Below, piece after piece: positions 4,601 through 61,881 of a stretch of DNA of 64,000 nt (positions within the stretch are counted from its first letter, which is position 1; each line of letters starts with the position of its first letter). The position numbers and the translations under genes were made by a program. The stretch spans positions 4,997,501 to 5,061,500 of the forward strand of contig OX359195.1 of assembly GCA_947172415.1 (NCBI GenBank), given 5' to 3'. Source of the stretch: Chondrosia reniformis. Lineage: Eukaryota; Porifera; Demospongiae; Chondrillida; Chondrillidae. The notes below the pieces were generated by a model. That model saw only the letters and a list, made by a program, of their open reading frames with translations, searched no databases and had not been told where the DNA came from.

Positions 4601-7600
4601 ATAACGAACTTCAAATTGCAGTAAATTTATTTCGTTTTAACCGAATTTCGTTATAAAAAAGATATGTTTTAAGGCACTCATCATATCCATACTCGTCACG
4701 GTAAATTATAGATGGAATGTCTATAGCTCTAAGTCATTTGTTCGTTTTTTGTAGTACATTGACATCAAAATAAATTCAAAATTTATGTTTATATATGTTC
4801 AGAATTTGTCAAAAGCAATTTTATGCTTTTGACAAATGGTCTTTTCATGCCTGCATCAAGTTCTTCTAGCACTTTCAGTTTAAAATAAACACTGTAAGAC
4901 TTTCGCTTGGACATCTTAAATCAACTTCAGCAGAACGAAAAATACCGTATACTTAAGGTGTTAAGGTGTTAGTTATTACTTGACCGCTAAAATAACATCG
5001 AATTCATTATAATGTTCGTACCCATTATGTGTATACACTTCATTCGCAAAAACTTAACGTCCAGGATCAAAACACCAGACCAGGAAAGTTTCGTTATAAA
5101 CGAATTTTTCTAAGATTCGACCGTAAAATTTCGTTATAAACCGAAGGTTTTATGTTGTTTAAAACCGTTTTTCAAAACGTTTCGTTACAACCAAAATTTC
5201 GTTAAATTCGTGTTCGTTATAAACGTGTTCCACTGTATATAATTTCAGAATTAGGACCACCTCCAAATTAAGGCCAAAAAGGTGGTCGCATTTGTGAGGT
5301 TCCATTGTATAAAGGAAAGGAAACAAATTCTTTAATTTGAGACAAGGGCTTCATGAAACAGTCAAATGAAGCCAAACATTGTCCCATTTCTGATTTTATG
5401 ATATTATGATTGATTATACATTGATTCCATGCATTTCCTATTTGAAGAGTATCTCAGAGAGTACAATACCACTGTCCTGATAGCTTTTAGACTGAATACT
5501 AATCTTAGTAACCTTTTGAAGGATTGACTTGTTGCTTCACAAAGGTCATGAAAGTTACCAATCAACCAATGTATGTATATACATAGGTATACAACCTAGG
5601 AGTAAGTGCAGCCTTTGACTTTAGATACAGTATATTATTTTAAAGATGAGTTAAATCTGAAAATTAACTGAGTAAAATGAAATACCCAAGATGAACTGAA
5701 GACTCATCGAGCTAGTAAAATAACTTATGGTTAACTGACAAAACATTGTATGGTGGTTGACCAGCTATATTTTCTTACTTCGTATATATGAGTGTGACAC
5801 TAAAATTAAAATTATATAACCAAACATTTCCACAACTACAACTATTCAGTTGTCTTTATCAGTGGTATTACAGCAAGTGAGAGATGGGGTGGAATACATA
5901 CACAAACCGGTCGGGAAAAAAGGGGTGTGTGTGATGAAATGTCTGTGATTATATTTAAGTTAAACAAATATTAAATAAGATCATATATACGAAGTAAAGA
6001 TGGATTGTCCTAACCACTCAGGTCTATATCAGCTATATTTTGTGTAGCAATCACTGGTTAGCATAGATAATATACGTATCTCAGTGATTATTATATGCAT
6101 GTATTGTGTAAACACATTATGTATCTATACGTATTATGCCTCATCAAGGATAATGATCTGAACAGCGATGGAGACCAGCCAAATAGTGTACAGCAGAGCA
6201 AAGAAGAACCTACTTTACTGGAAAAAAAGAAAGATGATCCCGAAAAGGTACCATGTCTATACCTTAATGAATTGTCCTAACCACTCAGGTCTATATCAGC
6301 TATATTTTGTGTAGCAATCACTGGTTAGCATAGATATTATACGCATCTCAGTGATTATTATATGCATGTATTGTGCAAACACATTATGTATCTATACGTA
6401 TTATGCCTCATCAAGGATAATGATCTGAACAGCGATGGAGACCAGCCAAATAGTGTACAGCAGAGCAAAGAAGAACCTACTTTACTGGAAAAAAAGAAAG
6501 ATGAACCCGAAAAGGTACCATGTCTATACCTTAATGAATTGTCCTGGTCTATATCAGCTATATTTTGTGTAGCAATCACTGGTTAGCATAGATATTATAC
6601 GCATCTCAGTGATTATTATATGCATGTATTGTGCAAACACATTATGTATCTATACGTATTATGCCTCATCAAGGATAATGATCTGAACAGCGATGGAGAC
6701 CAGCCAAATAGTGTACAGCAGAGCAAAGAAGAACCTACTTTACTGGAAAAAAAGAAAGATGAACCCGAAAAGGTACCATGTCTATACCTTAATGAATTGT
6801 CCTGGTCTATATCAGCTATATTTTGTGTAGCAATCACTGGTTAGCATAGATATTATACGCATCTCAGTGATTATTATATGCATGTATTGTGCAAACACAT
6901 TATGTATCTATACGTATTATGCCTCATCAAGGATAATGATCTGAACAGCGATGGAGACCAGCCAAATAGTGTACAGCAGAGCAAAGAAGAACCTACTTTA
7001 CTGGAAAAAAAGAAAGATGATCCCGAAAAGGTACCATGTCTATACCTTAATGAATTGTCCTAATCACTCAGGTCTATATCAGCTATATTTTGTGTAGCAA
7101 TCACTGGTTAACATAGATATTATACGTATCTCAGTGATTATTATATGCATGTATTGTGCAAACACATTATGTATCTATACGTATTATGCCTCATCAAGGA
7201 TAATGATCTGAACAGCGATGGAGACCAGCCAAATAGTGTACAGCAGAGCAAAGAAGAACCTACTTTACTGGAAAAAAAGAAAGATGAACCCGAAAAGGTA
7301 CCATGTCTATACCTTAATGAATTGTCCTGGTCTATATCAGCTATATTTTGTGTAGCAATCACTGGTTAGCATAGATATTATACGCATCTCAGTGATTATT
7401 ATATGCATGTATTGTGCAAACACATTATGTATCTATACGTATTATGCCTCATCAAGGATAATGATCTGAACAGCGATGGAGACCAGCCAAATAGTGTACA
7501 GCAGAGCAAAGAAGAACCTACTTTACTGGAAAAAAAGAAAGATGATCCCGAAAAGGTACCATGTCTATACCTTAATGAATTGTCCTAACCACTCAGGTCT

Positions 7601-9011
7601 ATATCAGCTATATTTTGTGTAGCAATCACTGGTTAGCATAGATAATATACGTATCTCAGTGATTATTATATGCATGTATTGTGTAAACACATTATGTATC
7701 TATACGTATTATGCCTCATCAAGGATAATGATCTGAACAGCGATGGAGACCAGCCAAATAGTGTACAGCAGAGCAAAGAAGAACCTACTTTACTGGAAAA
7801 AAAGAAAGATGATCCCGAAAAGGTACCATGTCTATACCTTAATGAATTGTCCTAACCACTCAGGTCTATATCAGCTATATTTTGTGTAGCAATCACTGGT
7901 TAGCATAGATAATATACGTATCTCAGTGATTATTATATGCATGTATTGTGTAAACACATTATGTATCTATACGTATTATGCCTCATCAAGGATAATGATC
8001 TGAACAGCGATGGAGACCAGCCAAATAGTGTACAGCAGAGCAAAGAATGATAAAGTTTATGTCAATGTCATTTTATGTACAGGAAGTTTATACGTAAATA
8101 CGACTTGAGAGACCAACTAAAGTGGTACTATTTGGGGTTAGCCTGAGCAAGCCCCATACTAATGAGTCAACTATATAGGTATTTAGGGCACGATATTTCA
8201 GCTTAGTGCACCATACAGTGCTAATTGGCTACTCACAGTGCTGAGTTGGCATGATTTGTTTTTCACCTTAGAGACAGCTATACATGCTGTCACCGATTTC
8301 TCATTAGCCTATATAGAGAAAGAAGAAACTTTGAGACTCAGCATAGTGTGAAAGGGAGGGAGAGAGGTTGGGTTCAATGGGCTGCAGTAATCTGTCAAAT
8401 ATGTAGCTTGCTTGTACAGTGCAGTCAATTCTCTTTCTTGACATTTATTTTCATGTATATAGACATCTGTCCAAGATTATAATCAAGGTCCAGGACCAAG
8501 GCATATTTTGATCAATGGCCTATACACTTATCAAGTTAGTGATACTATTTGGTAAATTATGTTTAGCAACATGATTCAGCATGATTCATATGCTGATGGT
8601 TGGTTTCTGGCCAAATTAATGTTAATCAAACATTAGTGATGTAAGTGTATAGATATTCTAATGGCTATATAACGTATAATACTTACACAAGTAGAATGCC
8701 ATTTTAGCTTTAGGACTTAAACTAAGACATAGTGGTGATGGTGTGTAATAACAGTAAAACTGTATTAATTTTATACCCATCGTGTTTTAGGGACAAATAA
8801 TATTGTTTCTAATCATAACATACATGTCTTCTTCTGTTTATCATAGAGTATTGTATTGGCAGTGCTAGCTGTATAGACTTCAAAAGCCTACTTGTTGATG
8901 GCACTGTGATATTGTCTTTTATTATAGCCAAAAACTGCATCTGACAGTGATGATAGTCGAGAAGGAATTGCAGAAGAAACACAAAATGACTTGAGTATGG
9001 ATTTTGTGTGA
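1683..9011 (+). CDS. Unrecognised gene with a tandemly repeated 33-codon exon; coiled-coil/acidic protein
   Basis: Seen exons: a possible first exon 1683-1697 (MAQTR, donor GTGAGT); about 2548-2650 (LPVLVVLHLMEDANLSDDEA); 3886-3987; 4078-4146; seven 99-nt exons 6149-6247, 6416-6514, 6674-6772, 6932-7030, 7199-7297, 7457-7555 and 7724-7822; terminal exon 8928-9011 ending DLSMDFV-stop. Exons from 3886 on are phase 0 at both ends, so repeats can be added or skipped in frame. The donor of the 2548 exon is unresolved: GTTATA at 2651 leaves phase 1, while the next exon needs phase 0, so a small exon may be missing. The 3886 and 4078 exons encode a Gln/Leu-rich probable coiled coil. The repeat (KEEPTLLEKKKDDPEK at its end) is charged and probably disordered. 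There is no signal peptide, and I do not recognise the family. All exons used would give roughly 350 residues. An eighth copy at 7991-8050 runs into a stop. Confidence 0.6.
2900..3163. mobile_element. Small element with CAGGGG...CCCCTG termini
   Basis: It begins CAGGGGCATAGG and ends GGCTACACCCCTG, an imperfect terminal inverted repeat of the kind seen in hAT-type MITEs. No clean 8-bp target duplication is visible, so the class is uncertain. It lies in an intron of the tandem-exon gene. Confidence 0.4.
4586..5235. mobile_element. Tigger/pogo-like non-autonomous DNA transposon
   Basis: The termini are CAGTGGAGCACAGATATAAC and the complement of CAGTGGAACACGTTTATAAC, flanked by TA on both sides, as for Tc1/mariner-pogo elements. 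The interior repeats TTCGTTATAAA-type motifs and has no transposase reading frame, so it is an internally deleted or MITE form of 650 bp. It sits in an intron upstream of the exon array. Confidence 0.75.
6006..8050 (+). repeat. Tandem array of 258/267-bp units, each carrying one exon
   Basis: Seven complete units and a truncated eighth. Each unit holds intron sequence, the acceptor CTCATCAAG, a 99-nt exon and the donor GTACCA. Two unit types exist: 267 bp with exon ending DDPEK and the nonamer AACCACTCA after the exon (copies 1, 4, 6, 7), and 258 bp with exon ending DEPEK and no nonamer (copies 2, 3, 5). The two markers are perfectly linked. Introns are as similar between units as exons, which points to recent amplification or homogenisation. 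Copy 8 (exon start 7991) leaves the repeat after SKE and meets TGA at 8048. Confidence 0.95.
8051..8927. other. Last intron of the tandem-exon gene, no feature seen
   Basis: AT-rich sequence between the broken last repeat and the terminal exon. No conserved coding stretch or paired termini were recognised. Confidence 0.4.
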
Positions 9012-13291: not shown

Positions 13292-23142
<9,851 letters not shown>

Positions 23143-23501: not shown

Positions 23502-23591
23502 AATATAATACAGTGTAGTAGAAGTATACGTATTGCCGTATAAGGGGACTTCCCTTAGTCTTCATGTTGCAATAGCTGGATATATTGCAAG

Positions 23592-23753
23592 ATGCCTGAA
23601 CCGACTGAAGACAAAAAGCTAAAGCCTTGCTGTGCCTGTCCTGAAACGAAGAAGGCGAGAGACGAGTGTATCGTACTAAATGGCGAAGACTCTTGTAAGG
23701 AGTTAATAGAAGCTCACAAAGAATGCCTCAGGAAACATGGATTTAAAGTGTAA
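23592..23753 (+). CDS. COX17: Cytochrome c oxidase copper chaperone COX17
   Basis: A single-exon frame of 53 residues. The protein carries the copper-binding KPCCACP motif followed by the twin CX9C pattern ([11 protein letters not shown] and [11 protein letters not shown]) and ends RKHGFKV, matching animal COX17 almost position for position in its second half. COX17 works in the mitochondrial intermembrane space, is oxidised by the MIA40 relay, and passes Cu(I) to SCO1/SCO2 and COX11 for assembly of cytochrome c oxidase. No N-terminal presequence is expected or seen. The start is the only ATG before the motif (AAGATGC). It lies 449 bp after the ABCC stop on the same strand and is convergent with the POMK-like gene. 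The lack of an intron is unusual beside its intron-rich neighbours. Confidence 0.97.
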
Positions 23754-24515: not shown

Positions 24516-25694
24516 CTACAATGACATTCCATTGGTCAATAGGAAAATAGTGTCTTTGTAAGCACCAGCTATACTGTTCATTGTTGGTCTCATGCCTACA
24601 TCTCTGTCCTTGCATCTCTGGTGTACTGCAGCAAGGTAATCCATAACAACTCCACCACTCACCACATCATGCATGAGGTGCTCAGTCAGATCAGGGACTA
24701 CCCACACATCTCCCTCTCTAGTGTAGAATGACTCTACCTTCTGGTCTATCGACTTTACTCTACCTGCTTGATTGCTGTGTCTTACTTCTGGTGGCATGAG
24801 AAGACTTACATTCTTCTGATTCATTTTGGCCCCAGAACACAAGGGGTTGTGGTTTAGTGAATCCAGGCATAAAAATGCATCAAAATTGAAAATAGCTACC
24901 TCACCAGAATCACTGATCAGAAAGTATTGCAACAAATCAGTAATCCTATTTCTCCTGCAGAGCACATGAGCTTGGGGCTCATACGAATGCACATGGGACA
25001 ACAGATCAAGTATCCTGTACAAAACAGCCAATCGGAAAGACCAGTGATTGTGGGGGTGGGGCTTTAGAGTGAGGTTGGCTAGCGGATACCATGAAAGTGG
25101 TGCAGCTGTATACAGAACCATACATGCATCTACCAAGCAGTATCCAACAATGAGCAGTGACTTTTGATGGGCCTGGATTTTCAGAATTAAATCTGTCTGA
25201 AGTTGATTTCGTTTTTCAGCCTGAGCACGGACATCTGGGCATGCATATAATATGGTAAATCCTCGCCAGACTGCTAAATTAATTACATACATCCCAGTAT
25301 TAACAAGCAGCTTGCTTACTCGGACTTCCTCCTCTATGGTACCGCAATCTAGCAGCTTTCTGCAGACAACGAACCCAGGCAGACTGAAAGTACCCCAAGG
25401 ACAAGCATGACAAGTGGCATTCTGTCCCTTTCGAACTAATCCACCTACACAAGGTTTTTTTCGAGGTCTGAAAGAAATAGGCGATTCTAAATTCATATGC
25501 TTCCTAACTACATCCACACCTGGAATAAATTCACTGTAAACAGGGCTCAGGGACAGTGTTGATCCTGCATATTCCGTGGCTGTTTTGCGATAAATTTTGG
25601 CTAACATTACACCAGCCAGCCAAATAATTAATAGTAACCACGCTGTCTGCAAATGCATCCATCGAATCCGCACTGCTGTCAGTAATCTTCGCAT
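24516..25694 (-). CDS. POMK-like (SGK196) type II membrane kinase-fold protein, probably inactive
   Basis: Single exon, 392 residues against about 350 for vertebrate POMK. A hydrophobic anchor at 19-32 gives a type II topology with the domain in the ER/Golgi lumen. The CPWGTFSLPGFVVCRKLLDC segment (98-117) matches the Cys-bearing start of POMK, and PPEVR (301-305), GDVWVVPD (328-335) and MRPT (368-371) match the activation-end, helix F and RPT landmarks. POMK phosphorylates O-mannose in the alpha-dystroglycan core glycan. Here the segment equal to the POMK catalytic loop (C-D-S-N-D in vertebrates, from memory) reads CRRNR (246-250), so the Asp is Arg. No Lys is found where the ATP-binding Lys is expected (about 145-152), and the metal-binding Asp region reads FNFDAF. 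I infer a pseudokinase or strongly altered enzyme; a related PKDCC/FAM20-type assignment is less likely. Confidence 0.8.
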   Translation of the reverse strand: MRRLLTAVRIRWMHLQTAWLLLIIWLAGVMLAKIYRKTATEYAGSTLSLSPVYSEFIPGVDVVRKHMNLESPISFRPRKKPCVGGLVRKGQNATCHACPWGTFSLPGFVVCRKLLDCGTIEEEVRVSKLLVNTGMYVINLAVWRGFTILYACPDVRAQAEKRNQLQTDLILKIQAHQKSLLIVGYCLVDACMVLYTAAPLSWYPLANLTLKPHPHNHWSFRLAVLYRILDLLSHVHSYEPQAHVLCRRNRITDLLQYFLISDSGEVAIFNFDAFLCLDSLNHNPLCSGAKMNQKNVSLLMPPEVRHSNQAGRVKSIDQKVESFYTREGDVWVVPDLTEHLMHDVVSGGVVMDYLAAVHQRCKDRDVGMRPTMNSIAGAYKDTIFLLTNGMSL

Positions 25695-27962
25695 ATGTTC
25701 TCATTTCTGCTCTGTAAAAATCATGGTGTAGGAGGGTTGTAACGTCTGCTTTGGTTTTTCCTTAGAAACGCCCATCTAGTCACGTGACCTAACAAAGTGG
25801 GTTGAACCCCTTAGAATAGAAGACAAATGGTGAGTTAGCTACAACTTACAGTAGTGTAAAGCGTCTGATATTACTTTTAAATATGATGACTTGATATACG
25901 TAGAATTAAAAAGGGCTTTTTATATATTTGAAGCTTTTTATCATAATGAAATATATAGGGTATAGTCCATTGGGCGAATATAGCATTTTAAAGGTATGGA
26001 TTTAGTGTTCAATCCGCATGAATTCGTGTATCTATGCTTGCATGTATGACTCGGGTCACCTCTCTAATGCAGCTTGATTGAATAAGTTGGGTCAATGTAT
26101 AGGGTCTATATACGTAGGAACGTTTCACTTTAATATCTAATATGATACATTTCACTATATCTCATTCCTTGTCTGTAGTCTGCAATATTTAGCTTAAACA
26201 GCCTGCTGCTAGTGATTCTACTGCTGATATGTACCTGTACATTCTTCCGAGCAATATTCCCTCAGATAATAGACAGACATAAAACTGGGTAGGGATATCC
26301 ATCTTTTGTACATACAGTAGTAGTAGTTGTGATAATACGTATTTGTTAGTACTATGGTTTACGTAGTTTATATACAAATGTTTAAAATGCTTTGCTCGGC
26401 GAATATTAGATAAATAATCTAATACACCATTTTCCTACATGCTATGCCTACTCTGTAATAAATTAAAGCCTATAGGGAACTAAACCTGGAGAGAGCTTTG
26501 GATGAGGATACAGGAGTCTTCTCTTCCTTCTTTTGCTCCACTGGGCTAGACAGATGTTTCTGGGAATTTCACCCTTCTTCCGTGACCCTGGGAATCTTTG
26601 TCTTTTTCTTGATCTTTGTGAGTCCTTGACTCTCTATGCTAAATGTAAGGGTGGGGGTGAATTGTATGTATGTATGCATGTGGTATCTTAAAGTACCCGT
26701 GTGTGTTATCTTTTTAATTACAGTACAGTACATACAGATACATCTCTTTAAAATGATGATAAATACACTAATAAAGCTAGAAGAGGAGGTTTATTAATTG
26801 TATACTTTCTTTTCTTTACACATGCATAATGAAGATTGCGAGGTACTTTTTGGAAATGTGCAAGAATAGGTACGTGTACTTTAGACTTTATTAATTACAT
26901 ACATTATACTATACATTATAATGGGTGCAGATAAGGCATTTTCCCCTTGCTTAAATCTTACCAGCTCTTTTTGAAATATTTAGAATACCTATAAACATTT
27001 TGTTGTCATATGGATATGCTTGTCCCCTTGAAGGATATTCTAAATACAGTGCTGATTATTTATCAAGGTTGTATTATGAATGAATGACTATTGAAGTGGT
27101 TTGAGTTTAGCAATTTAGGGTTACATATTAATTTTTTGAAGTGTGTAATGTACAGTATAAAGAATCATGAGCTTATTATTTGTGTATTATGTGATAATAT
27201 ATTCCCAACTTTTCATTTTAGGTGAAAGAAAAAGTCCATATGTTGCTATATTCTGTGTCGCTATGGCATTTCACTTATTGTTCTCAACATGACACCATTT
27301 TTAATTTGTTTAAGTTATGAGTATAATTAAACTGAGTATATACAGCTTTTGCTGAGGCTTGTTTTCAATATTACGTAAACAGACGCATTTGCCCTTGTAT
27401 TCCTAGGGTGTTAATGACGTGTTCACTTTAATACTAAGATTGTTAATTAGGTTTGATATGTTATATAAGTTACAGAAAGCCAAAACCAATAAGAAGGCAT
27501 AAATATCTCGAGAAACAAGAATATTTTTTTTTTCAAAAGGACATATGCATGTGGCATGCACATTGCATTATACGAGTATGCTGCTTGCAGTGGTAGCTAT
27601 ATATTATATTATATAGTGTTAAGAATTGGACACAAATAGCAAATTATTAATGTTAACTATATCCTTTATATATACCCTACTACTACTATTATGCAAAAAG
27701 CATTAAACAAATTGAAAATAGCATTAAACCTATGTGAAAAAATTATATACAATATGTCATGTGCACGTACCATGCATGCTTGTAATGATCAGAGTTGCAA
27801 ATTTCACTCGAAATCATGATGGTTTACACATTATTATACTAAGTATATCCTATTTTGCCTATAGCCAAATTTGTTTACTGGTTAAATCTATGTGATCTAA
27901 TTCTACATTATGGAGTATATCTAGTTGCAAATCTTAGGGATTTGTAGCTAGTAGCCAAAGAC
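25695..27962. other. Gene-free AT-rich spacer
   Basis: 2.3 kb between the divergent start of the POMK-like gene and the last exon of the secreted gene. The only recognised element is a family P repeat at about 26415-26650. No coding block with splice support was found. Confidence 0.45.
26415..26650 (+). repeat. Family P repeat, near full-length
   Basis: Runs from ACCATTTTCCTACATGCTAT through AGGGAACTAAACCTGGAGAG to TGACTCTCTATGCTAAATGT, the same ends as the 0.7 and 56.2 kb copies. Confidence 0.7.
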
Positions 27963-30900
27963 TTAATAGCAGCGAACCATTTGAACTGTTTTTGGCTTCA
28001 CAGCAATCCTAAACATAAAAAGGAGAAGTTTATTATAACATTAAACACCATTTTTTTACTTTACTTATATAGTAAACATTGCACTCTACACCTCACTTTT
28101 TGTTAAACGTACCTGTAAACACAGTTCTGCTTAGTAGTGCAGGTAGTTGTTGGGAAACGGATACCAAAGTAGGTAACATGAGTGGTTTCACAGCTCAACT
28201 TTGGAAAGCAATCCCTAGTTTTAGTAGTAAGCAGTGTTATTCTTGATACACTTCTGCACTTAGTGGGGGCTACTGTAGGAATTTCATTTGTACCTATATA
28301 CATATATACATAAAAGAAAGGGAGAAACTTGCTGGTTATAGGTTATATCTATATCTGTACATGTCTAACTGTCTATCTATATCTAACTAGCTATATAGTG
28401 TACAGCTCTTCACTATATTAGATTCCCCAACATGGATTGAAGAAAATTAACGAATTAGTTTAAAGTTTGCCTGAGAGGAAGGCATGATTGCATGAGCTTC
28501 TGTGGAAATGGATTAATAATTTAATTATTTATCCAATTTCTGTACATAAGGGTTAACTGTTCTATTATTAGTGCTAGTCGTGCTCAAATATAAAGATTAT
28601 TTTCTATATATGCATGCAGTGATTAGTATATATATACATATATTATGTACTCAGATATTCTAGCCTGCATGGTATATATTAAGGATAAATATATGTGGCA
28701 TTAATATAAAAATGCACTAACTTGCAGTATTCTCTGAACAACTTGTGTGTATTCACATATAGAAATGATAAAAGAAACATACAAATTGCATAGAATCATA
28801 TTTTTTTGGGCGTTAAAATAAGGTGAGCATGTTTTATCGGCCAACCCTACTTAAAGTTTACTACGGTCTGTCAAGGGCTGAAAGTGTATAATGCTATTAT
28901 TATATATACATAATATATACATAAACTTCTGTAGAGTGAAATCTTGCTATATAAATTATATTCTTTTCCCATCCATCTATTATGAATATGTGAAAACAAT
29001 CAGCTTTAAGTAGCTTTTGAATTAATAATTAAAACATATATTCAAATTAAAATATAGTACATAATATCTTGAATAAACCAGCATGTGTGGCTATATCGGT
29101 TCATCAATCATGATTTAGATTCCAACTATCACTAGCCAAATGAAACAGATTTACATCCAATGTTTCGGTAACATTTATATACCTTCATCAGGGATTAATG
29201 ACAAAGGACACAGCTTTTTAAATGTAGATTCATAAAATGATGTGGTGAGTTGACAGTCGATGATATGATACCATTCAGAGATTCCAAATTGAAAATAGTC
29301 AAGGAGGGCCTTTATTCAAGAGGAAGAATCTCCTTTTCCTTGTTTAAGGCATTAGGATGGTTCTGGATTTGCCAACTTTCAAGAAGGCATCATGTGGTGA
29401 CATATGGGTGACATATGGGCTGAAGTAATATAGACTCCAAGCCATATGTCACCACACAATATGCCTTCTTTTGAAAGTTGGCACATCCAGAACCATCCTA
29501 ATGCCTTAAACAGGGAAAAGGGGATTCTTCCTCTCAAATATATACAATTAAGGCCCTCCTCGACTAATTGTATCTTATTTGGACTCTCTGAATGGTATAT
29601 CATATCATCAACTATCAACTCACCACAATTATTTTATGAACCTATATTTAAAAAAAACTGTGTATATGTAGCTAGATCCGTTGTCATTAATCCCTGATGA
29701 AGATAGCTGTAATTGCTACCGAAATGTTGGGTGTAAATCTGTTTCATTTGGCTATATATATGCAGTAATAGTTTGAATCTAAATCATAATAGTAATATAT
29801 ATTCAAATGTACACAATTTCATTTACCTGCAAACTTCAACAACTTCCGCCGCATTGTGCCCATGTCCACAAAATGGAAATTTTTTTGCTCTATTTTTGCA
29901 TAAGAATTTTGTTTCACAACATGCATCAGTAGGAGGTACTGTAGTTGGAGTCACAGCTGTATACAGAATGAAAGCATATATTAAGTCCTATCACAACTAC
30001 AGAAGAAGAGTATAAACAATTAAAAACTATAAAATATAGCTCATATATCTTAGTAAATCATAATAATTTTGATTTGTTATATACGTATGTAAGACCTATA
30101 GTTCTACATATATGTCTAGTCTAAGATCTATAGTCTGTATACATGAGCTGTATATATATAATATACACAAGGCCTTAAATTGGCCATCAATGGTGATGTA
30201 CGTATTTACGCCAATCTCTGTATTCTATATATATTTATACTAATATCAGGGTTCCATCTAGGATGCAAATTTTGGGGGGGAAGGGGGGTCTGGGGCATGT
30301 ACCCGCAGGAAAATTTAGGATTTTATGCCCTCTGATATTGATTCTGACATGATCTGAGAAGTGAAAATCACATTTCTGGAACGTTAACCATGATGTTTTT
30401 CTTGCACTCATTTTATCAGCAATTATATGATATAATTAATTCAGAGATAGGTACATGTAGTCTTATTCAGGAGTGTGATACTCTAGACACAGAACAAAAC
30501 AGTGCAACAATAATGCATAAGGGTAATCTACACTTCTTAGCTAGTTTGTAATTATCTACTTTTGACTCCAGAATCTCATCAGAGAACTTTCTCTATGCCA
30601 TTTTTAAATTGCAATTGGATAAAAAAATTTGCGGGGGAAGCTGGAGTGTTTGGGGGAGAAGTTTCCTCCCCCCCCATTAGATTGAACCCTGACTATACAT
30701 GTACATACATACAGTAGAACCCCTTATCTGGATGTCATATAATATTTGTAGCCACCTCCGGCACTTGGCAGCTTTTAAATTTATAAAAAGAGAAAAAGGT
30801 ACAGTATCTATACATACACTGGTATATGTGTACATGCATTTGTTAGTGCTTCCTCCATAAAGTACAATGAGAGCAAGATGTTTCCATATTCATTACTTCT

Positions 30901-33900
30901 TTGGAGATGGTGAAGAAAGGAAAGTTTTATAGAGAGTTGTTGCATCTATTTTGAGATGCCTAAATAAATTCAGTTAGCGTATAATTTCTAAGTTGTGGGC
31001 AATTGATCCTATACATATAATACAATGCCCTTGACCAGATAAGGGAGGTACACTGTATATTCATACATTATAACATTGGATATTTATATATCATATATTT
31101 TATAGTACACGTAATTATAAACCTCATTTTAAATGTATGCATGCATACATATTAATTTTTGTAAACAATTTCAAAATGGATACTGCGGTCAAGTAATTTG
31201 AGTGTGAGGACAGGAATTTTTAACTCATAGTAATTGTTGATAATGTCACATAGAACACATAGAAAGACCTCCCGGCATAAAATGTCTATATAACAAAAAG
31301 GTTATACGTAGAAGGTAAATTTAGTAATAATTTTATATGTGGGCATGAACCATGCACCTAAGAGAATATATATGCTTGATACTGTTAATTAGAATATATA
31401 CATGTAAACAAATGTAAAACATATCTATCTAGATTTCGTGTACTAACCTGTTGTAGTCTCCGAACAACTGGTTATTGACAATATAAAAATGATAAAAGAA
31501 TATATATAGGTACGTATAGACTGCATCATTATAGCATAATATATATCAGTTATATATGATACTGTAAAGGCTCATTGCTGTGTAGAGGGTACTGATTATT
31601 GAGAGTTACTGAGCGTAATCGCAGCAACTGGAATAACACAATGAACAATTCAATTAATTTCCAGGATGTTTCGATCCAGAGATCTTTCTCAACTACAATA
31701 AACTGGCATGACTGGAAGAAATCCTTATTGTAGACAATTTCATTTACCTGCAAACTTCAACAACTTCCACCGCATTGTGCCCACGTCCACAAAATGGAAA
31801 TTTCCTTGTTCTATTTTTGCATAAGAACTTTGTTTCACAACATGCATCAGTAGGAGGTACTGTCACAACTACAGAAGAAGAGTAAAAGCAGTAAAAACTA
31901 TATAAAGTTAATGAATCATACTAATTTTAATTTATTATATATTGTACCTATATATATATATATATATAGTTCTCCATCTACGTATATAGACTGCATGTAT
32001 GAAATATATATTCAACGCCTTGAAATGGCCATCAGTAGTGATGTACGCATACATATATTTATGCCAATCTGTATTCTGTATTCATATATATAATACATAT
32101 ACATGTACATATACGTATACAGTAGAACCCCTTATCTGGATATCATATATAATATTTGTGGCCACCTAGCTTCTGCACTTGGTAAAATTAAAAAAAGAAA
32201 AAAAGATGCAGTAGCTAAATACATTGGTATATGTGTTCATGCATTTGTTAGTGCTTCCTCCATAAAGTATATACAATGAGAGCAAGATATTTCTATTTAT
32301 TACTTCTTTGGAGATGAAGCTTTATATCATTCAAGAATCAAAGAAAGAGAGTTGTTGCATCTATTTTGAGATGCCTAAATAAATTCTAAGAGTATATATA
32401 TGCTAGTTACAGTTGTTAGGAAATCTAAATTTTGCAAACACCAGACTAATTAAGACTATAGTGACTGTAATATATACATGTAAACGAATGTTTCACTAAA
32501 CATATCATGACGTACTAACCTGATGTATTCTCTGAACAACTGGTCATTGACAATATAAAATGATAAAAGAATATATATAAGTACGTAGACTGCACCTGGT
32601 ATATATATACCACATGCATATCAGCAATGTATAAGTATGAACAATTATATAACCTGCAATTGCGCATACATTTGGATCTACATATTTGCATAATATAATT
32701 ACGCAATACTGGTATATATCTGGAATTGAATTTGAGGCTAATAGATTGTGATTTATCCAAACTACAGGTATAAGCATTGTGCTGGTTAAGATGAAGCTTA
32801 AGGTACAGACTAGACTTTAATTATTTGTTACTGTAAATTAAAGACGGAGGTCGGAGATAGGCCAATGGTTCCTATAATACAGTACTGACTTAATTGCATC
32901 AAAGGCATTTAGGCCTTTTAATTTTATTCATCAATCAGTTTTCCAAAACTCATGGTTAATTTATTTTATCATACAAATTGTAACATGTACATATACATAT
33001 ATGTGCACATTTTTCAACACATATAGCCTTCCATTCTGTAGCAAATAGTCATTACTACTTTGCTGACCTACTGTATTAGCTTCACATGTACAAGGAGGTT
33101 AAAGAAGACCATTCCCCTACCACCTCCCTCACATGCACATGAATATACATATATATACACAATATAGTCATAATTTCATTCTCAATTTACTCGCAAACTT
33201 CAACAACTTCCACTGCATTGTGCCCACGTCCACAAAATGGAAATTTTTTTACTCTATTTTTGCATAAGAATTTTGTTTCACAACATGCATCAGTAGGAGG
33301 TACTGTAGTTGGAGTCACAGCTGCATACAGAAAGAAAGCATATTATGCAGGCATTTGTGTTCCTGACAAGTTTTAAGAGTATATATACGTATATATATAT
33401 ACGTATAGTGTGTATAGAATAAATGGGGTTATATACAGTTGCACAATAAAAATATGGCAGGAATTTAGACATAGAGAATTTAAGCATAATACCATGCCAT
33501 TCATGCATACATGCAAGGTATATATATTTATATATATGATACATACATATATACACTAACCTGCACTGGTTGGTTCAGTTGAATAAAAGCTTTCTGAGTT
33601 TCTATATTGGATGTCAAAAGAGACAGAAAGTGTGAGATGCTTATATATGAAACATATTTTAGTGTATATGTGTGATGTCCATATGTATATGGTATCAATT
33701 TTGTATAATATACTGTCTTTGGTATTACTAACATACATTGATGAATAGGATCCAGATTCACTGAATGAAAAGCTGTACATGTCATCCAATTCAGATGAAC
33801 TCATGTCAAAAGTTGAACTTGGATTTATAACTAACATATAGAAAAAGGGAGGTTTATTTTAAATTTATATACTTCTAATTGTGATAATAATTTTAAGGCA

Positions 33901-35263
33901 CTGTGTAGCTAGATATAGGTTATGGGAATTATATGTATAAAAGTAAATATGAACCATTGAAAAGAAACTTTCTTATACATTTGATTAGAGTCTAAATGTT
34001 CATATAGAATATAACATGCAGGGTATTTTAGATGTATGATAAACAACAAAATGGTTATGTACATATAGAATATATACACATAAGTTAATGTATATATGTG
34101 TATTATAATACACTTACCTGAAGTAGTCCCGGAACAACTTGTTATTGACAATATACATAAAATGATAGGATAAATTCAATAACATTCTAGATCTGCAGCA
34201 AACAGTCTGCATAACTTATATTTATTACCATTTCCCTATAGGTATGTATATATATAGTGCCAACTTGTTGTCTATATACGTGCTTCATTATGCAACCCTA
34301 GAAAAGAGCATCTGCATGGTTCTATGTCAACCGGATATATGGCAGGAATTATGTCATATTTAGAATTATTTACTTATGTATTATATATACATATATATGA
34401 ATACATGTAGTAATATTGAAATGATCAGAATATTCAAATGAAATTAATTTATTTAATAATGAAAATAACAACATTCAAATGGTATATCTTTGAGATCATG
34501 GTTCATCTTTCAGCCATTTGAGCGTCTAAAAATGCAGTTGGTTCTTTTAGAGATTGCATGATGCATGTTTCGACCCTGGGGGTCTTCTTCAGTGACTGAT
34601 GGTGACTGCTGGAGGTTGTCGCGATCTTTATAGAGATTTTGCATCTTTAGATGCTCAAAAGACTAAAAGATGAACGATGAACCATCTCAAAGATAGGTTT
34701 AGCACAGTTAGAGAAGAAATCCCTATCATGTAATTCAAATGTTATATATTTTTTACAGAAGTTCAATCAGTTTACCTGCAAACTTCAACAACTTCCACTG
34801 CATTGTGCCCACGTCCACAAAATGGAAATTTCCTTGTTCTATTTTTGCATTGGAATTTTGTTTCACAATATGCATGAGGTACTGTAGTTGGAGTCACAGC
34901 TGGAAGAAGAGTATATGTATATAAGACCATATATAGAGCATATATAAAGACGAGATATTGTTAACATGGAGCTAGTCACTAGTATTGTTGTAATATATAG
35001 AGTAATACGATAGCAGTAATGCAGATCGAATTTGAAGTATAAGGCCTAGGTATATATATATATATATATACATGCATGATGCAGATATATTCGTTCATAC
35101 AAATATTATATATATACTCACCTGTATCAGTTGGTGAAGTTGAACATGGATATATATCTAACACCGATTCAGGATGCTGAGCTGTTGAATACTGCCATTG
35201 CATATAAATGAAGACAACCAGTAGGAGTCTGTTAGTTATCATCTTTTGAGAATTTAGTTTCAA
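27963..35263 (-). CDS. Secreted cysteine-rich protein built of repeated Cys-module/microexon pairs
   Basis: Thirteen exons on the minus strand (plus-strand coordinates, in transcript order): 35122-35263, 34776-34899, 34118-34137, 33737-33830, 33561-33601, 33191-33320, 32520-32539, 31748-31859, 31448-31467, 29827-29956, 28721-28740, 28113-28293, 27963-28008. Total 1080 nt, 359 residues, every phase consistent. It opens with a signal peptide; Met8 (35242, MITNRLLLVVFIYMQWQ) aligns with the starts of the two related genes and is the likelier start. Four copies of a Cys module (phase 1 in, 2 out; KFPFCGRGHNAVEVVEVC) are each followed by a 20-nt microexon (phase 2 in, 1 out) encoding CSGTTS, CSENTS, CSETTT or CSENTA. 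An acidic Ser-rich exon lies after the first pair. The C-terminal module has six Cys and ends MVRCY. I do not recognise the domain. A structural or defence protein outside the cell is possible; that is inference. Confidence 0.8.
29107..29788. mobile_element. Long foldback element, about 680 bp
   Basis: The left arm (ATGATTTAGATTCCAACTAT ... CCAAATGAAACAGATTTACA) is complementary to the right arm (TGTAAATCTGTTTCATTTGG ... GAATCTAAATCAT), with the centre near 29430. The arms are close to 330 bp. A fragment of the same family lies at 47915-48010 in SF3A1. The open frames over the centre, on both strands, are a consequence of the symmetry. It is in the last large intron block of the secreted gene. 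Confidence 0.8.
30247..30691. mobile_element. MITE with CAGGGTTCCATCTA termini
   Basis: CAGGGTTCCATCTAGGATG at the left pairs with TTAGATTGAACCCTG at the right, with G-run and C-run subterminal tracts. About 445 bp, non-coding, intronic in the secreted gene. A shorter relative ending AAAACCCTGA is near 46975-47043. Confidence 0.65.
34497..34712. mobile_element. MULE-like MITE, copy in secreted gene intron
   Basis: GTTCATCTTTCAGCCATTTG at the left and the complement near GATGAACCATCTCAAAGAT at the right, with a central GACCCTGGGGGTCTTCTTCA shared with the copy at 52713-52915. Confidence 0.65.
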
Positions 35264-39172: not shown

Positions 39173-39787
39173 CTAACCACATCTATGAGTTGGAGTTGGG
39201 GTAGGCCATGGAAGGGTGGCATCTCCACTACATTTCCACTCACAAAAAAAGTTTATCCTTCTTCCACATTTACACACACCCATTGAAGGAAAGCAAGGGA
39301 ATCCATTTAACTTTGGCCTATTAGAACATTTGCAATTTCTTTTTTTCTTTTCCTCTTCACAAAGTGGCATTGAAGGTGTTGGACATGGTGACAGACTCTC
39401 AGTAACAATTCCAAAGTCACAGCTACTTACTGATGTACTCTCAATACTACAAGAAGTTATTCCATTTCTGTAGTAAAAATACATGCCATCGATCCCAATA
39501 ATGTGCATATAATTTAATTTGCCTAATACATACACCATTGTACAAACATTGAGGTATTAATTCATCATCAACTAGCTGTGTGCATGCATGATAGGCTGTG
39601 TATCGTACATGCAACTTGATTCAGATTCATCCATATCTATGAAATCATCAGTAAAATCCATGGTAAATGTGGAATCTGGATCTGGTATCTCATTAGGTGG
39701 TGGAGGACGTGGAGGAAAAAAACGTTGAGCTTCCAAAGTTTGCCATTGTACAAAAACATAGGTAATCAGCAAGAGTTTACCAAACAT
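39173..39787 (-). CDS. Small secreted Cys-rich protein, related to the 28-35 kb gene
   Basis: Exon 1 39609-39787 gives a signal peptide (MFGKLLLITYVFVQWQTLEA), a Pro-rich start and an acidic segment DSTFTMDFTDDFIDMDESES, ending phase 2 at the donor GTACGA. Exon 2 39467 down to 39178 gives a domain with 14 Cys, including NCKCSNRPKLNGFPC and VCKCGRRINFFCEWKC. At 39177 a GTTAGT donor is present. Either a further, unseen exon follows, or the frame reads on to the stop at 39173 after THRCG, giving about 157 residues. The signal peptide and the acidic segment are clearly homologous to those of the large secreted gene, and the C-x2-NR...FP-C...V-C-x-C spacing recalls its Cys module. Function unknown; extracellular by its signal peptide. 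Confidence 0.65.
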
Positions 39788-42404: not shown

Positions 42405-42976
42405 TCATCCATATCCAATTACAGTAACTGTTGCAGTAACAGTTTCAGTAACAGTTTCAGTTTGTCCAAAGTCATTGCTGTAACTTACTGCTGTACTATC
42501 AATACTATAAGAAGTTATAATTCCATTTCTGTAGTAAAAAATACAGGCCATTGATCCCAATAATGTGCATATATATACGTGTAGCACACCATTTAATTTG
42601 CCTAATACATACACCATTGTCATAATTATATTACATAAACATTGAGGTATTAATCTATCATCAACTAGCTGTGTGCATGCATGATAGGTTGTGTATATAT
42701 ATCGTACATGTAACTTGATTCAGATTCATCCATATTATAATCATCGATATCATCAGTAAAATCCATGGTAAATGTGGAATCTGGATTTGGTATCTCATAA
42801 GATGATGGAGGTGGAGAACATGGAGGAGGTGGAGGACATGGAGTAGGTGGAGGACATGGAGTAGGTGGAGGACATGGAGTAGGTGGAGGACATGGAGTAG
42901 GTGGAGGACACCGTTGAGCTTCCAAAGTCTGCCATTGTACAAAAACATAGGTAATCAGCAAGAGTTTACCAAACAT
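42405..42976 (-). CDS. Small secreted protein with CPPPTP repeats, paralogue of the 39.2 kb gene
   Basis: Exon 1 42708-42976 encodes the same signal peptide as the 39.2 kb gene, then a run of CPPPTP hexads from an 18-bp tandem repeat, and the acidic DSTFTMDFTDD segment; donor GTACGA, phase 2. Exon 2 42405-42528 reads NGIITSYSIDSTAVSYSNDF, then TETVTETVTATVTVIGYG and a stop. Total 393 nt, 130 residues. Compared with the paralogue, the Cys-rich second half is gone and the Cys residues here are in the Pro-rich part. A Cys-Pro-rich secreted peptide of this kind could be cross-linked into a matrix; that is inference. Confidence 0.65.
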
Positions 42977-52500: not shown

Positions 52501-55500
52501 TTTTAAGACCTCCTTGATCCAAGATGGATTGAGCTTCAGCAAAAGAAGGTTGAAGAGAAGAAACAGCAGGATGAGGTGTATGCTCAAGGTCTTCAGATTG
52601 GAACCACACTTAAACATCTTGCTGAAAGACGTACTGACATCTTTGGTATTGGTGGAGAGGAAACAGTCATTGGGAGAAAGGTACTACTATTATTAGATGA
52701 TAAGGATTTCTTCTAACTGAGCCAAATTTATCTTTGAGATGGTTCATCTTTTAGTCTTTTGAGCGTCTAGAGAAGCAGTTAGTTCTTTTAGGGATTCGGA
52801 CGTTTTGATCCTGGGGATCTTCTTCAGTGACTGACTCCCACAGTGGAAACATCTGAATCTCTAAAAGAACCAACTGTGTCTTTAGGCCCTCAAAGATGAA
52901 CCAACTCAAAGATGCGGTATTATTGCATTACTTTAGTACGTATGTAGATACATGTATCTGTTATATACGTAGTAAGTTGATGGTACTGAATTGTGTTTAG
53001 TGATACGTACGTATATACGTATAGACTGACTTAATGTTAGCCTCTTTGTTTATTGGTTGCCATATGAATAATCAATGGATAATCAAACCACAAGTAATCA
53101 TTCATAAACATGGTAAAGATGGCCCCTCCAACCATAAGAGGGCTGGCTGGCTGGGTCTTTGATTTATCAACTTGTTCAGGGAAAACATGAAAGAAGCAAC
53201 TGCTGGGAATTGATTCCAGGACAGCTGGTTATGACAACCAGTTCTCTGCCTCTGGGCTATAAAGCTAGTTCCCTGCCTCTGGGCTATAAAGCTAGTTCCC
53301 TGCCTCTGGGCTATAAAGCTAGTTCCCTGCCTCCGGGTTATAAAGCTAGTTCCCTGCCTCTGGGCTTTAAAGCTAGTTCCCTGCCTCTGGGCTATAAAGC
53401 TAGTTCCCTGCCTCTGGGCTATAAAGCTAGTTCCCTGCCTCTGGGCTATAAAGCTAGTTCCCTGCCTCTGGGCTATAAAGCTAGTTCCCTGCCTCCGGGT
53501 TATAAAGCTAGTTCCCTGCCTCTGGGCTATAAAGCTAGTTCCCTGCCTCCGGGCTATAAAGCTAGTTCCCTGCCTCCGGGCTATAAAGCTAGTTCCCTGC
53601 CTCCGGGCTATAAAGCTAGTTCTCTGCCTCTGGGCTATAAAGCTAGTTCCCTGCCTCTGGGCTATAAAGCTAGTTCCCTGCCTCCGGGTTATAAAGCTAG
53701 TTCCCTGCCTCTGGGCTTTAAAGCTAGTTCCCTGCCTCTGGGCTATAAAGCTAGTTCCCTGCCTCTGGGCTATAAAGCTAGTTCCCTGCCTCTGGGCTAT
53801 AAAGCTAGTTCCCTGCCTCTGGGCTATAAAGCTAGTTCCCTGCCTCCGGGTTATAAAGCTAGTTCCCTGCCTCTGGGCTATAAAGCTAGTTCCCTGCCTC
53901 CGGGCTATAAAGCTAGTTCCCTGCCTCCGGGCTATAAAGCTAGTTCCCTGCCTCCGGGCTATAAAGCTAGTTCTCTGCCTCCGGGCTATAAAGCTAGTTC
54001 TCTGCCTCTGGGCTATAAAGCTAGTTCCCTGCCTCCGGGTTATAAAGCTAGTTCCCTGCCTCTGGGCTATAAAGCTAGTTTCCTGCCTCTGGGCTATAAA
54101 GCTAGTTTCCTCTACATAGACTAATTGGTGGTGATGGAACAAGGTGATAATCAGGGACCCAGCCAAATGTACATACCTATGTACATATATGTACTTGTAA
54201 GGAAGTATATTAATTAAGTTAGTATATATGTGGTGACTCTTTATGTGTTCTTAGATTGGGGAAGAAGAAAAAGGTCTGGAACCACAACAATGGGATGGCT
54301 TTAGAGCAAGGTACATTTTTAGTTGAATTATGTCTTAAAATATACGTATGTAAGCCCAGGTATGCAATATCAGAGCTAATCCCTGCGCCTTGCCAAGATA
54401 GCTCACAGAACGCTAGCATGAGTGATCACTGAACGGTTAACCACACTGACAAAATGAATCAATATCAGCTGCAACTACAGCAGCTTAAATAGTACAATAG
54501 GTGATAATACCTAAACATTAGTTTAGTGGTATGGTAAACATAATACCACATAGTAAACAGTCCTATGATAAACTAAATAATCTAATAGTCAGACACTAAG
54601 GTTACACGTATGTACAACGTACTGTACATATGTACATGCTGTCCACTGGACACACTGGATACAAATGTAATGTCCACTGGACACACTGGATACAAATGTA
54701 ATGTCCACTGGACACACTGGATACAAATGTAATGTCCACTGGACACACTGGATACAAATGTAATGTCCACTGGACACACTGGATACAAATGTAATGTCCA
54801 CTGGACACACTGGATACAAATGTAATGTCCACTGGACACACTGGATACAAATGTAATGTCCACTGGAGGATAGAGACTCTGAAGACAAGTTTATGAAACT
54901 TTCAAATTTTCTATAGTTTTCCTAGTCTGTGAGAGTAGTCCATTCTATTTGTATTCTCCTCAGCTCCATATTAATACCAGTCTGTAGGAAGTGGTGTTTA
55001 ATAATGAATCATGACATTCATTGGTGCTTTTTGTATACACCAATGTAATTGTAAAATAGGTCACCCACGGTCCATTTTGTAACTCAAACTGAATGATTAA
55101 CAATAAATACTGCATATATTTATTATATACGTACGTATGTACCCATGCTTCATAATCCCAGAATTGTAACACATTTGTGATGTTTTGTGACAGTACACGT
55201 ACGTATGTACGTACATACATACTTACAAGAGTACAAGTGGCAGATATTTAAAATGTGAGTTTTAAGTTGGCTTTCCTCCTTTTAGTGCCAGCATGTTGTC
55301 GGCAAGGGCTTTGGCTTCCATTACTTCAGAAGATGAAGCAATTTATACAAAGAAACAAGAAGAGTAAGTCTCTGTCTCCTTCTAATGTGCCTTCCTTAAA
55401 GGAATTACTTACATACGTATGTAAATGAATGCATTCAGAGCATCATCAGTCCGTAACAGGAAGTGAAGTATCTTTGATGTCACTCTTTCAGTACTGCCAT

Positions 55501-59213: not shown

Positions 59214-61294
59214 CTAACTTTTACGCACACGGCATTCATACAATGTCGGAGAAAGGTAGAATTCTTTAACATTTTTCCTTATGCTAAATCCATCAATTGC
59301 ACTCTGACCCAGTGGCCTATGGCGTGTTTCAGGAATAAACAAAATCACAAAAATAGCAGCAAGAAGTGATACGGCTGAGAAGATGAAGAATGGAATAGCC
59401 TCTCCTATCGCAGCTGATGCTATGGGAAGCATAGTGGTAGTAACAACTACTCCAAGCCAGTTGGCAGCTGAACCCAAACCCATTCCAAACTTTCGTGTGT
59501 TGTCTGCAAACATTTCGGCTGCAACCGTAAACACAGTTGATGCCCAACATATGCCAAATGCAAATATAAATAAAACCACACTAACAAGTGCCAAGGGACT
59601 GTACTGTTTGCCTAATTCTGGGTCAGTTGTAGGCGCAAAAAAGCACTGAGATGATTTGTTGGATAAAGTATCATTTAGATCATTATTATTAATAAAACCT
59701 TTAACTATACCAAAGAACACAGCAACTCCAATATTGGCTATCATCATACCAATAGCTCCAAAGAAAAGTAGGAACTTCCTGCCCAGTAAATCTACTATTA
59801 AGGCACACAAAATTGCACTTAAAACTGCGGATATCCCAATGCATATGGATGCTGCTAAACCTGGTGGAAAGGACCAAGAATCCCCACCTCCAGCTCTGAA
59901 GATTGGTCCGGCATAGAAAGCAATGGCATTAAAACCCATCAGCTGTTGAAAGGCTAGCAACAGAAAGCAAATCGGTGCCTGCCAGAGAAGTACCTTCCAC
60001 GAACTCCTAATTTTACTTTGTGACTGTTTCTTAGAATTAGTAGATATATTAAATGGTAGCTCAACCTCCTCATTCTGAGATTTCTTCCAATACTTTGCTT
60101 TAAATCTACTATAAGCACTTGTTGTCTTAGCTGGTTCTCTGATAGTAAACAGTAGTATTATGTTTAGTAATGCCACACCAGCAAATATAAAGGCAAGAAT
60201 CCAGTATGAGAGGACAAAACCGAGTGCATAGGCTATAAATATACCTATACCTATAGATATGCTCATGGCATTCAGAAGCTTCCCTCTTAGATTGACAGGA
60301 GATACTTCAGGAATATAAGTCTACAGGGAGACAGAAAGCAGTGCACTGTAATATTGATAAAAGCATAATAACTGATTAATATTTACAAATGATATACATA
60401 CATATGCAAGTATCGTTTAGCCATTGGAAATGTTTGACTTTTGCACAACCAAAACTGAATGCACCAGACGCAAGCATCCAAATTTTGATTATACCTGGTC
60501 CATCCAAATTTCGATTCTGAATGCAATTTGAACACCCCATTTAAGCCATTCATTCCCTTCAAAATATTCTAGTTTTAAGCATGCCAGTCAGCCTGAAAGA
60601 GAGCTATATTGGTCCAAAGTTGGTAGTCCAAGTAATCTCTGAGATGTAAATGTGTCCGAATTCTATTATTTTACTCTATAAATCTTGTTCTCTTCTTGTT
60701 TTGATAAATCATACATTTTATCGACTATCCAAAAGGCATTAACATCAGTATTCCTATATATACCTAGGCAGTATTCTCTGAAATGCTGAAGAATCAGTCT
60801 GAGGCCGAATTTAGAAATCTAGAAAGGGAGTTATCTTTATATCTTTTTTATTATGCTACATTTAGAATATGCTTTATAGAACTTACAGGTACTACGGAAC
60901 TGCTCCATCCTGTTGCTATTCCTGTTACAGTACGCCCTAGTAGTATCAAAGCTCTAAAAGTAGACGGATCGGCTACAAAAAACGATGCACCGATTAAGGT
61001 CCAGCCGACAACGTAAATGGACGACCCAAGCACGAGAGACTCCACTATCCCCAATGCCGACATAGCTGGAGAGCTCATCAGCCCGCCAAAGATAGCACCA
61101 ACCGGAGTCAGGGGACCAATGAGAGCTTGGTAACTGCAGGATTGAAATCCAATCGTCCATTGTGTAAAATTCTCTCTACTCTGAAGATCATCCAGGAGTG
61201 GAGAAGAAAATACTGAGGCGAACCCGAATTCGAGGGTACCCAGTGATGCTACTGTAATAAAATACAGTAGCTTGAAAGTCTCAACTTTCGTCAT
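59214..61294 (-). CDS. SLC2A / Tret1-like major-facilitator sugar transporter
   Basis: Two exons, 61294-60887 and 60320-59214, joined in phase 0 across a GTAAGT donor; 504 residues, usual for the family, with about 12 hydrophobic helices. Signatures in order: FGFASVFSSPLLDDL in helix 1 (the SSP form is found in SLC2A6/8 and insect Tret1), GRTVTGIATGW and TYIPEVSPVNLRGKL around helix 5, QQLMGFNAIAFYAGPIF in helix 7, DLLGRKFLLFFGA at helix 8-9, AAEMFADNTRKFGMG at helix 10-11, FIPETRHRPLG at the end. By family it moves hexose or disaccharide down a gradient across the plasma or an internal membrane. Two hallmarks are altered: the GRR after helix 2 is missing (GGLMSSPAMSALG) and the PESPR motif reads REPAK, so the substrate is uncertain. 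It is divergent from the second copy of its exon 1, which starts 179 bp away. Confidence 0.9.
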
Positions 61295-61473
61295 CCTTTA
61301 GATAGGTACAAAGCTAATAGTACAATGCGACGAGTGCGGCTGTCTGTTTCGTCACCACTAATTGAGGCGTATAGGTAATGGCCGCTGTTATTCCAATGAC
61401 TATGTATTATAGTCTGGCAAGCCAGCGGCCATATTTCTACTTAGTGGAATATTTGTGGGCCAACTCTGAAGGG
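61295..61473. promoter_or_regulatory. Short bidirectional spacer between the two transporter first exons
   Basis: 179 bp separate the two divergent start codons. It shows no inverted similarity between its halves apart from a few bases at each ATG, so each copy has its own 5' flank. It must hold the core promoter of the minus-strand gene and, if the plus copy is expressed, that one too. Confidence 0.4.
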
Positions 61474-61881
61474 ATGACGAAAGTTGAGACTTTCAAGCTA
61501 CTGTATTTTATTACAGTAGCATCACTGGGTATGCTAGAATTCGGGTTCGCCTCAGTATTTTCTTCTCCACTCCTGGATGATCTTCAGAGTAGAGAGAATT
61601 TTACACAATGGACGATTGGATTTCAATCCTGCAGTTACCAAGCTCTCATTGGTCCCCTGACTCCGGTTGGTGCTATCTTTGGCGGGCTGATGAGCTCTCC
61701 AGCTATGTCGGCATTGGGATTAGTGGCGTCTCTCGTACTTGGGTCGTCCATTTACGTTGTCGGCTGGACCTTAATCGGTGCATCGTTTTTTGTAGCCGAT
61801 CCCTCTACTTTTAGAGCTTTGATACTACTAGGGCGTACTGTAACAGGATTAGCAACAGGATGGATCGGTTCCGCAATACCT
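61474..61881 (+). CDS. Second copy of the sugar-transporter first exon (gene incomplete in window)
   Basis: 408 nt, exactly the length of the minus-strand exon 1, with only about 13 nucleotide differences counted by eye (97% identity). It ends with the same phase-0 donor GTAAGT. The start is set by the paralogue; an upstream in-frame ATG at 61378 would add 32 residues of no resemblance. It encodes helices 1 to 4 and the GRTVTGLATGW signature. No exon with TYIPEVSP was found from 61882 to 64000, where transposon-derived sequence lies. Either exon 2 is beyond the right edge, with a long intron, or this is a truncated duplicate. Several differences change residues (IVES/LVAS, WSSSVV/WIGSAI). Confidence 0.7.

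Follow-up and report, generated by a model that had tools for sequence, protein, structure and literature searches.

A stretch of 64,000 nucleotides from the genome of the demosponge Chondrosia reniformis (assembly GCA_947172415.1, contig OX359195.1, positions 4,997,501 to 5,061,500 of the forward strand; hereafter the window) carries on its minus strand, at 35242-27963, a gene, here called gene A, which probably encodes a secreted, disulfide-rich repeat protein with Thr/Pro linkers, built from exon pairs in which one partner is a microexon of 20 nt. The 13 predicted exons join into one open frame of 355 amino acids (a coding sequence of 1068 nt, stop included), with GT..AG at 12 of 12 introns; the introns measure from 104 to 1491 nt, and their phases alternate between 1 and 2 in all 12. 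When the gene was rebuilt, the four repeats of a Cys-module exon (phase 1 to 2) followed by a 20-nt microexon (phase 2 to 1), as proposed in the initial annotation, were all present, and the joining of the 13 exons in phase was borne out by the AG/GT borders and the single frame. Three of the microexons stood where they had been placed (34137-34118, 32539-32520 and 31467-31448), whereas the fourth had to be moved by one base, to 28741-28722 from 28740-28721, because the borders first given for it held no GT. The pairs are numbered here r1 to r4 from the 5' end; exons 4 and 5 sit between the first and the second pair, and exons 12 and 13 close the gene. An acceptor-like CAG/GAA found 25 nt ahead of the ATG makes an intron in the 5' untranslated region likely.

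The pair behaves as a unit of the reading frame, because each one has phase-1 introns on both flanks and a phase-2 intron inside. Removal of any single pair from the predicted transcript left a protein of 305-308 amino acids with the normal C-terminus, in all four cases, while removal of a single microexon truncated the protein to 89, 183, 233 or 276 amino acids. Thus, both the frame neutrality of the pair and the impossibility of skipping a microexon alone without a frameshift, claimed earlier from the phases, were confirmed. The building block would be an exon of 121-130 nt, coding for a linker and most of a Cys module, together with the 20-nt microexon, which supplies the last Cys of the module. 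Given these flanks and this inner intron, recombination within introns could add or remove whole pairs with the frame intact, and a microexon would be neither gained nor lost on its own. By this route a pair would have been copied to four, and the introns would later have taken up insertions and indels (small insertions or deletions).

The microexons themselves are short enough to call for independent evidence. A 28-nt pattern comprising the microexon and its borders, derived from the four copies, matched only these four places in the window with up to 3 mismatches, against an expectation of 0 from 100 shuffles; a slightly tighter version, allowing up to 2 mismatches, gave 4 matches in the whole genome of the sponge and 0 when the pattern was read backwards. 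The copies are therefore unique in the genome, although uniqueness alone does not prove that they are exons. In the ungapped comparison of the six pairs of copies, identity was 80% in the microexon, 92% in its donor and 71% in the preceding 20 nt, and fell to 24-40% further out. It is quite unlikely that these 20-nt blocks are leftovers of intron duplication and that the real transcripts end or are spliced otherwise. In favour of this reading, exons and introns of the pairs were duplicated together, the 20 nt upstream are alike as well, and codon usage gives no frame signal; however, no module joins the next exon in frame if the microexons are left out, donor and microexon are far more similar than the sequence following the donor (33-40% identity among copies), and all four copies measure 20 nt, aligned with no gap. 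All four microexons are presumably spliced in.

Further support came from the distribution of indels. The lengths of the four module exons differ by multiples of three only. Between r2 and r3, the sole pair with long alignable introns, we counted 0 indels in 136 aligned exon positions and 25 in 575 intron positions, of which 2 were multiples of three (probability of 0 in the exons, 0.003). A gap of 9 nt between the two exons lies directly before the aligned stretch; with this gap included there is a single exon indel, its length a multiple of three, and the probability of at most 1 becomes 0.019. Substitutions behaved otherwise, amounting to 11/136 (8%) in the exons and 63/575 (11%) in the introns (Fisher p 0.43). 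Frame constraint is hence visible in the exon indels, but not in the substitutions.

The similarity of the modules must be read in the same light. The r4 exon is identical to the other three module exons at 88, 95 and 97% of its DNA positions, core plus microexon agree at 99 to 104 of 112 bases in the six comparisons, and the encoded modules show 81-83% identity to the first one. The Cys of the module are kept in all four copies with one exception: r1 has Tyr in place of the first Cys of the doublet. The initial annotation spoke of a conserved core, a description that is not supported in this wording: since the substitution rates of exons and alignable introns in r2 and r3 do not differ, the modules are alike mostly because the copies are young, and not because of constraint. 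The introns preserve traces of how the array was made. The acceptor regions are of two types, one in r2 and r4 and the other in r1 and r3, and a further copy of acceptor and exon start, of the r3 type, lies just upstream of r4, within 29985-30025 (minus strand). This copy is likely a duplication fossil; its use would add 40 nt and break the frame. Shared acceptor types and the second r4 acceptor point to growth of the array by unequal exchange, or by copying, with the breaks falling close to where the exons start. Differences between the introns are explained in part by inserted repeats, for example in intron 10, where inverted repeats occur within 29133-29754.

An alternative that uses the same architecture differently is that the exons are cassettes chosen in many combinations, as a generator of diversity for, e.g., immunity or self recognition. 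All phase-1 acceptors are interchangeable and so are all phase-2 acceptors, which allows 144 frame-preserving chains from exon 1 to exon 13; the second acceptor copy upstream of r4 would offer a further choice, and in some pairs of modules amino acids changed nearly as fast as silent sites, with ratios of nonsynonymous to synonymous substitution (dN/dS) of 0.69, 0.71 and 0.85. On the other hand, compatibility of frame is merely permissive, and modules as similar as these would yield little diversity whichever was chosen. We consider this explanation unlikely.

At the protein level, the predicted product begins with a basic residue, a hydrophobic core (LLLVVFIYMQW by hydropathy) and a possible cleavage site, STA/Q, judged by eye. 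The start is thus signal-peptide-like, in agreement with the signal-peptide protein annotated initially, and the peptide is presumably cleaved. After residue 21 the chain contains 14.4% Thr and 9.0% Cys, with no second membrane-like stretch by hydropathy. The 30 Cys are distributed as one in exon 1, five in r1, six each in r2 to r4 and six in the C-terminal domain, and those of the modules and of the C-terminal domain presumably form disulfides; as a guess, the odd Cys of r1 might be bonded to the lone one of exon 1. Each microexon encodes Cys-Ser followed by a short acidic or Thr stretch, its Cys being the last one of the module.

No named domain could be assigned to this Cys pattern, as had been anticipated. 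The whole protein gave three sub-threshold families in Pfam-A, the best with 10.6 bits against a cut-off of 25.7, and the module alone and the C-terminal domain alone had no Pfam-A matches; among PDB sequences, the protein and its domains found chance-level matches only, the best being a viral 2A protease (E 0.074 over the full sequence, 1.3 over the matched stretch). The Cys spacing was also compared with EGF-like, peritrophin-like and cystine-knot domains, and these readings were dropped because the spacing fails at the end of the module and no profile matched. The genome, searched in full (117,379,552 bases in 15 contigs) at the level of protein, DNA and pattern, contained no further copies of module or microexon beyond the four, counts that are lower bounds as a very divergent copy could escape. 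The report of this assembly, odChoReni1.1, gives 117.37 Mb in 14 chromosomes plus the mitochondrion, with 117,390,217 bp in a figure legend and a GC content of 36.5-38.5% per chromosome (PMC12181767). Of the suggestion of an undescribed extracellular repeat family, the absence of a named domain therefore stands, but the word family is thin for a module found in only one gene in this genome.

We also considered whether gene A encodes a precursor of small peptides, in which a basic site ahead of FPF (RTRK, RVKK or RAKK) would be cleaved in each module, leaving two chains joined by disulfides. The 355 amino acids contain one pair of basic residues in each module and no others, the basic character of the pair is retained despite changes of residue, and near-identical repeats are common in peptide precursors. 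However, the linkers contain no basic pairs, so that the modules would not be freed from one another, and Lys at P1 makes a poor furin site. This possibility appears improbable to us.

Structures were predicted for the module and for the C-terminal domain. The model of the module exon, with the microexon left out, was too poor for a fold search (mean predicted local distance difference test score, pLDDT, of 53). From the single sequence of exon 12, a long hairpin was modelled with strands at residues 27-41 and 44-58 and the turn at 42-43; the pLDDT was 65 overall and 56, 86, 87 and 74 in successive blocks from residue 21 on, with 86-87 over residues 31-50. In the spliced domain the six Cys are mirror-symmetric about the predicted turn (12+73 = 28+57 = 34+51 = 85), an arrangement, noticed post hoc, that was reached in 0.0008 of trials when the inner four Cys were placed at random. 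The sixth Cys was absent from the folded piece, and its symmetric fit is therefore independent of the model. A nested ladder of disulfides, C1-C6, C2-C5 and C3-C4, would be the natural reading. Tachyplesins and theta-defensins are beta-hairpin peptides with nested disulfides, and the mirror symmetry would allow similar bonds on a hairpin here; unlike them, the C-terminal domain is far longer, with 62 residues from C1 to C6, its rungs would be wide and its bonds are predicted ones. The Cys of the module have no mirror symmetry of this kind. A fold search with the exon-12 model, run to an E of 10, gave 75 matches, of which none reached 0.001, and the best 50 of the 75 were weak, unrelated fragments. 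Homology between module and C-terminal domain was not supported, as 648 of 1000 shuffles scored as high, although exons 12 and 13 have the phase pattern of the module pair.

Several observations weigh against the proposed secreted repeat protein. The gene model was drawn from genomic DNA alone, with predicted splicing, and the indel test covers only one of the six pairs of modules. The six dN/dS values (Nei-Gojobori) were 0.26, 0.40, 0.47, 0.69, 0.71 and 0.85, that is, weak purifying selection at most and, up to 0.85, little sign of constraint on the amino acids. A codon-usage score trained on 1596 codons from six open frames of the window separated the coding sequence (0.008) from the introns (-0.26 to -0.28), but the true frame did not score above its two alternatives (0.037 and 0.067). 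Outside the genome of the sponge the search for relatives covered prokaryote and viral contigs only, where 107 and 49 pattern matches were found and none was confirmed. Composition is the sole pointer to a role in extracellular matrix or mucus, of which the protein would be a component. Finally, the kinship of exons 4 and 5 with the middle of gene B, an upstream neighbour, holds by a narrow margin (score 52, against a shuffled mean of 25.8 and a best shuffle of 50, with 0 of 1000 reaching it).

Two-exon extracellular domains are known: some sushi repeats and kringles have an inner phase-2 intron and are duplicated as a pair. The module of gene A resembles them in being split by an internal intron and duplicated pairwise, but has no Pfam match to either; to our knowledge, no 20-nt partner exon occurs in domains of this type. 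More generally, the copying of modules flanked by introns of the same phase is an established route to multidomain animal proteins (PMC6335736). As with the symmetric phase 1-1 modules of Patthy described there, which are metazoan and of extracellular type, the unit of gene A is flanked by introns of one phase, so that copying or skipping keeps the frame, and the pair enters and leaves in phase 1 and has been tandemly duplicated to four copies in one gene; unlike them, it consists of two exons, one of just 20 nt, and is an orphan module in a single gene. In the micro-exon genes (MEGs) of Schistosoma, 10-20 exons are short, with lengths of 6-81 bp that are mostly divisible by three (PMC10526429). 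These genes have been argued to work as diversity generators. Gene A would share with them a secreted product with a putative signal peptide, and has like them several very short exons between longer introns and lineage specificity. It differs in that its 4 microexons of 20 nt are not multiples of three and in the size of the remaining exons, with further short ones of 41 and 46 nt and the other seven of 94-181 nt, a distinction made by exon structure and not by sequence. Small exons of regular phase are found also in the bicycle genes of aphids, highly divergent putative effectors with ~17 exons on average, nearly all of whose internal exons start in phase 2 (PMC9168663), while the phases of gene A alternate between 1 and 2; here too exon structure was compared, and not CYC motifs. 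In the literature searched, namely titles and the beginnings of abstracts, in part as best-ranked matches and with most subscription journals outside it, no description of gene A or of such an exon pair was found.

Predicted features of gene A and of its tandem neighbours, with positions in the window.
Feature	Position	Strand	Remarks
Exon 1, leaving in phase 1; carries the start codon, one Cys and a signal-peptide-like segment	35122..35242	-	hydropathy; cleavage site by eye; genes B and C have a homologous start
Module exon r1, 124 nt, phase 1 to 2; 5 Cys including its microexon	34776..34899	-	
Microexon r1, 20 nt, phase 2 to 1; holds the last Cys of the module	34118..34137	-	
Exon 4, 94 nt, acidic Ser-rich, phase 1 to 2; homologue in genes B and C: end of exon 1	33737..33830	-	
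Exon 5, 41 nt, phase 2 to 1; homologue in genes B and C: start of exon 2	33561..33601	-	
Module exon r2, 130 nt, phase 1 to 2; 6 Cys including its microexon	33191..33320	-	
Microexon r2, 20 nt, phase 2 to 1	32520..32539	-	
Module exon r3, 121 nt, phase 1 to 2; 6 Cys including its microexon	31748..31868	-	
Microexon r3, 20 nt, phase 2 to 1	31448..31467	-	
Module exon r4, 130 nt, phase 1 to 2; 6 Cys including its microexon	29827..29956	-	
Microexon r4, 20 nt, phase 2 to 1	28722..28741	-	
Exon 12, 181 nt, phase 1 to 2; encodes the larger part of the C-terminal domain, with 5 of the six Cys	28113..28293	-	includes the predicted hairpin
Exon 13, 46 nt: end of split codon, last 14 codons with the sixth Cys, stop codon	27963..28008	-	
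Gene B (exons 39787-39609 and 39467-39173): signal exon and phase-2 intron like those of gene A, Cys domain not detectably related	39173..39787	-	
Gene C (exons 42976-42708 and 42528-42405): duplicate of B that lacks the Cys domain, 18-nt Pro-rich tandem repeat	42405..42976	-	

Upstream of gene A and on the same strand lie genes B and C, which are copies of each other in a tandem duplication of ~3 kb (80-87% identity) and have an identical start, MFGKLLLITYVFVQWQTLEAQ. Gene B carries an eight-Cys domain, while gene C has a Pro/Cys tandem repeat of 18 nt at 42809-42910. Exon 1 of gene A aligned to the start of B with a score of 52 (shuffled mean 18.5, best shuffle 38, 0 of 1000 reaching it). 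Common to the three genes are the start, an acceptor-like site that immediately precedes the ATG and an AT/A border at the phase-2 intron; this shared phase and border support the kinship of exons 4 and 5. The Cys domain of gene B was not detectably related to the A module, as 666 of 1000 shuffles scored as high. Gene A thus shares its signal exon and exons 4/5 with other genes, but not its module. Within the cluster, one kind of signal exon and one acidic Ser-rich part therefore seem to have been combined with Cys-rich bodies of different kinds. No further member of the cluster was convincing in the genome of the sponge at the sensitivity used: a match of the signal exon on C14 (E 0.27) and matches of the Cys exon of gene B on C9, C13, C8 and C6 (E 0.02 to 1.5) were judged to be chance.

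The end of exon 2 of gene B (39173-39190, minus strand) has a donor-like site in phase 1, and the 14 bases after it are identical to those that open intron 5 of gene A (GTTAGTGTATATAT); gene B may run on past its apparent stop. With this donor, and with GTTAGTGTATATAT following it as after exon 5 of A, B could splice into any of the six phase-1 acceptors of gene A. Genes C, B and A would then be one locus, whose alternative 5' ends feed a shared array of frame-compatible exon pairs, an arrangement to which we give very little credence; if it were true and the pairs freely chosen, well over a hundred secreted Cys-rich variants would be possible.

Elsewhere in the window, a single-exon open frame of 394 amino acids at 24519-25700 (minus strand), with no Pfam match at E 0.1, presumably resembles protein O-mannose kinase, and a short Cys-rich open frame at 23559-23750 (plus strand) seems to resemble the copper chaperone COX17. 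Pieces of an ABC transporter (ABC_membrane and ABC_tran in Pfam) were found at 17552-21280 (plus strand), and Sugar_tr pieces (Pfam), oriented away from each other on both strands at 59217-61998, probably belong to two genes. Two tandem repeats were observed, one of 27 nt in 32 copies at 53240-54111, with three open frames of 294 to 382 codons on the two strands together, and one of 267 nt in 7.8 copies at 6000-8047.

The tandem cluster as a whole would be a case of one signal exon reused with different Cys-rich bodies. If the predicted splicing is real, gene A is a clear example in nature of a microexon tied into a unit that duplicates, in which a 20-nt exon carrying a Cys, probably a structural one, survives copying only through a partner that restores the frame. 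The phase rule for module duplication would then be acting on exon pairs, in a sponge, and the four pairs would offer a four-fold replicate within one gene for the study of how very short exons are recognised.

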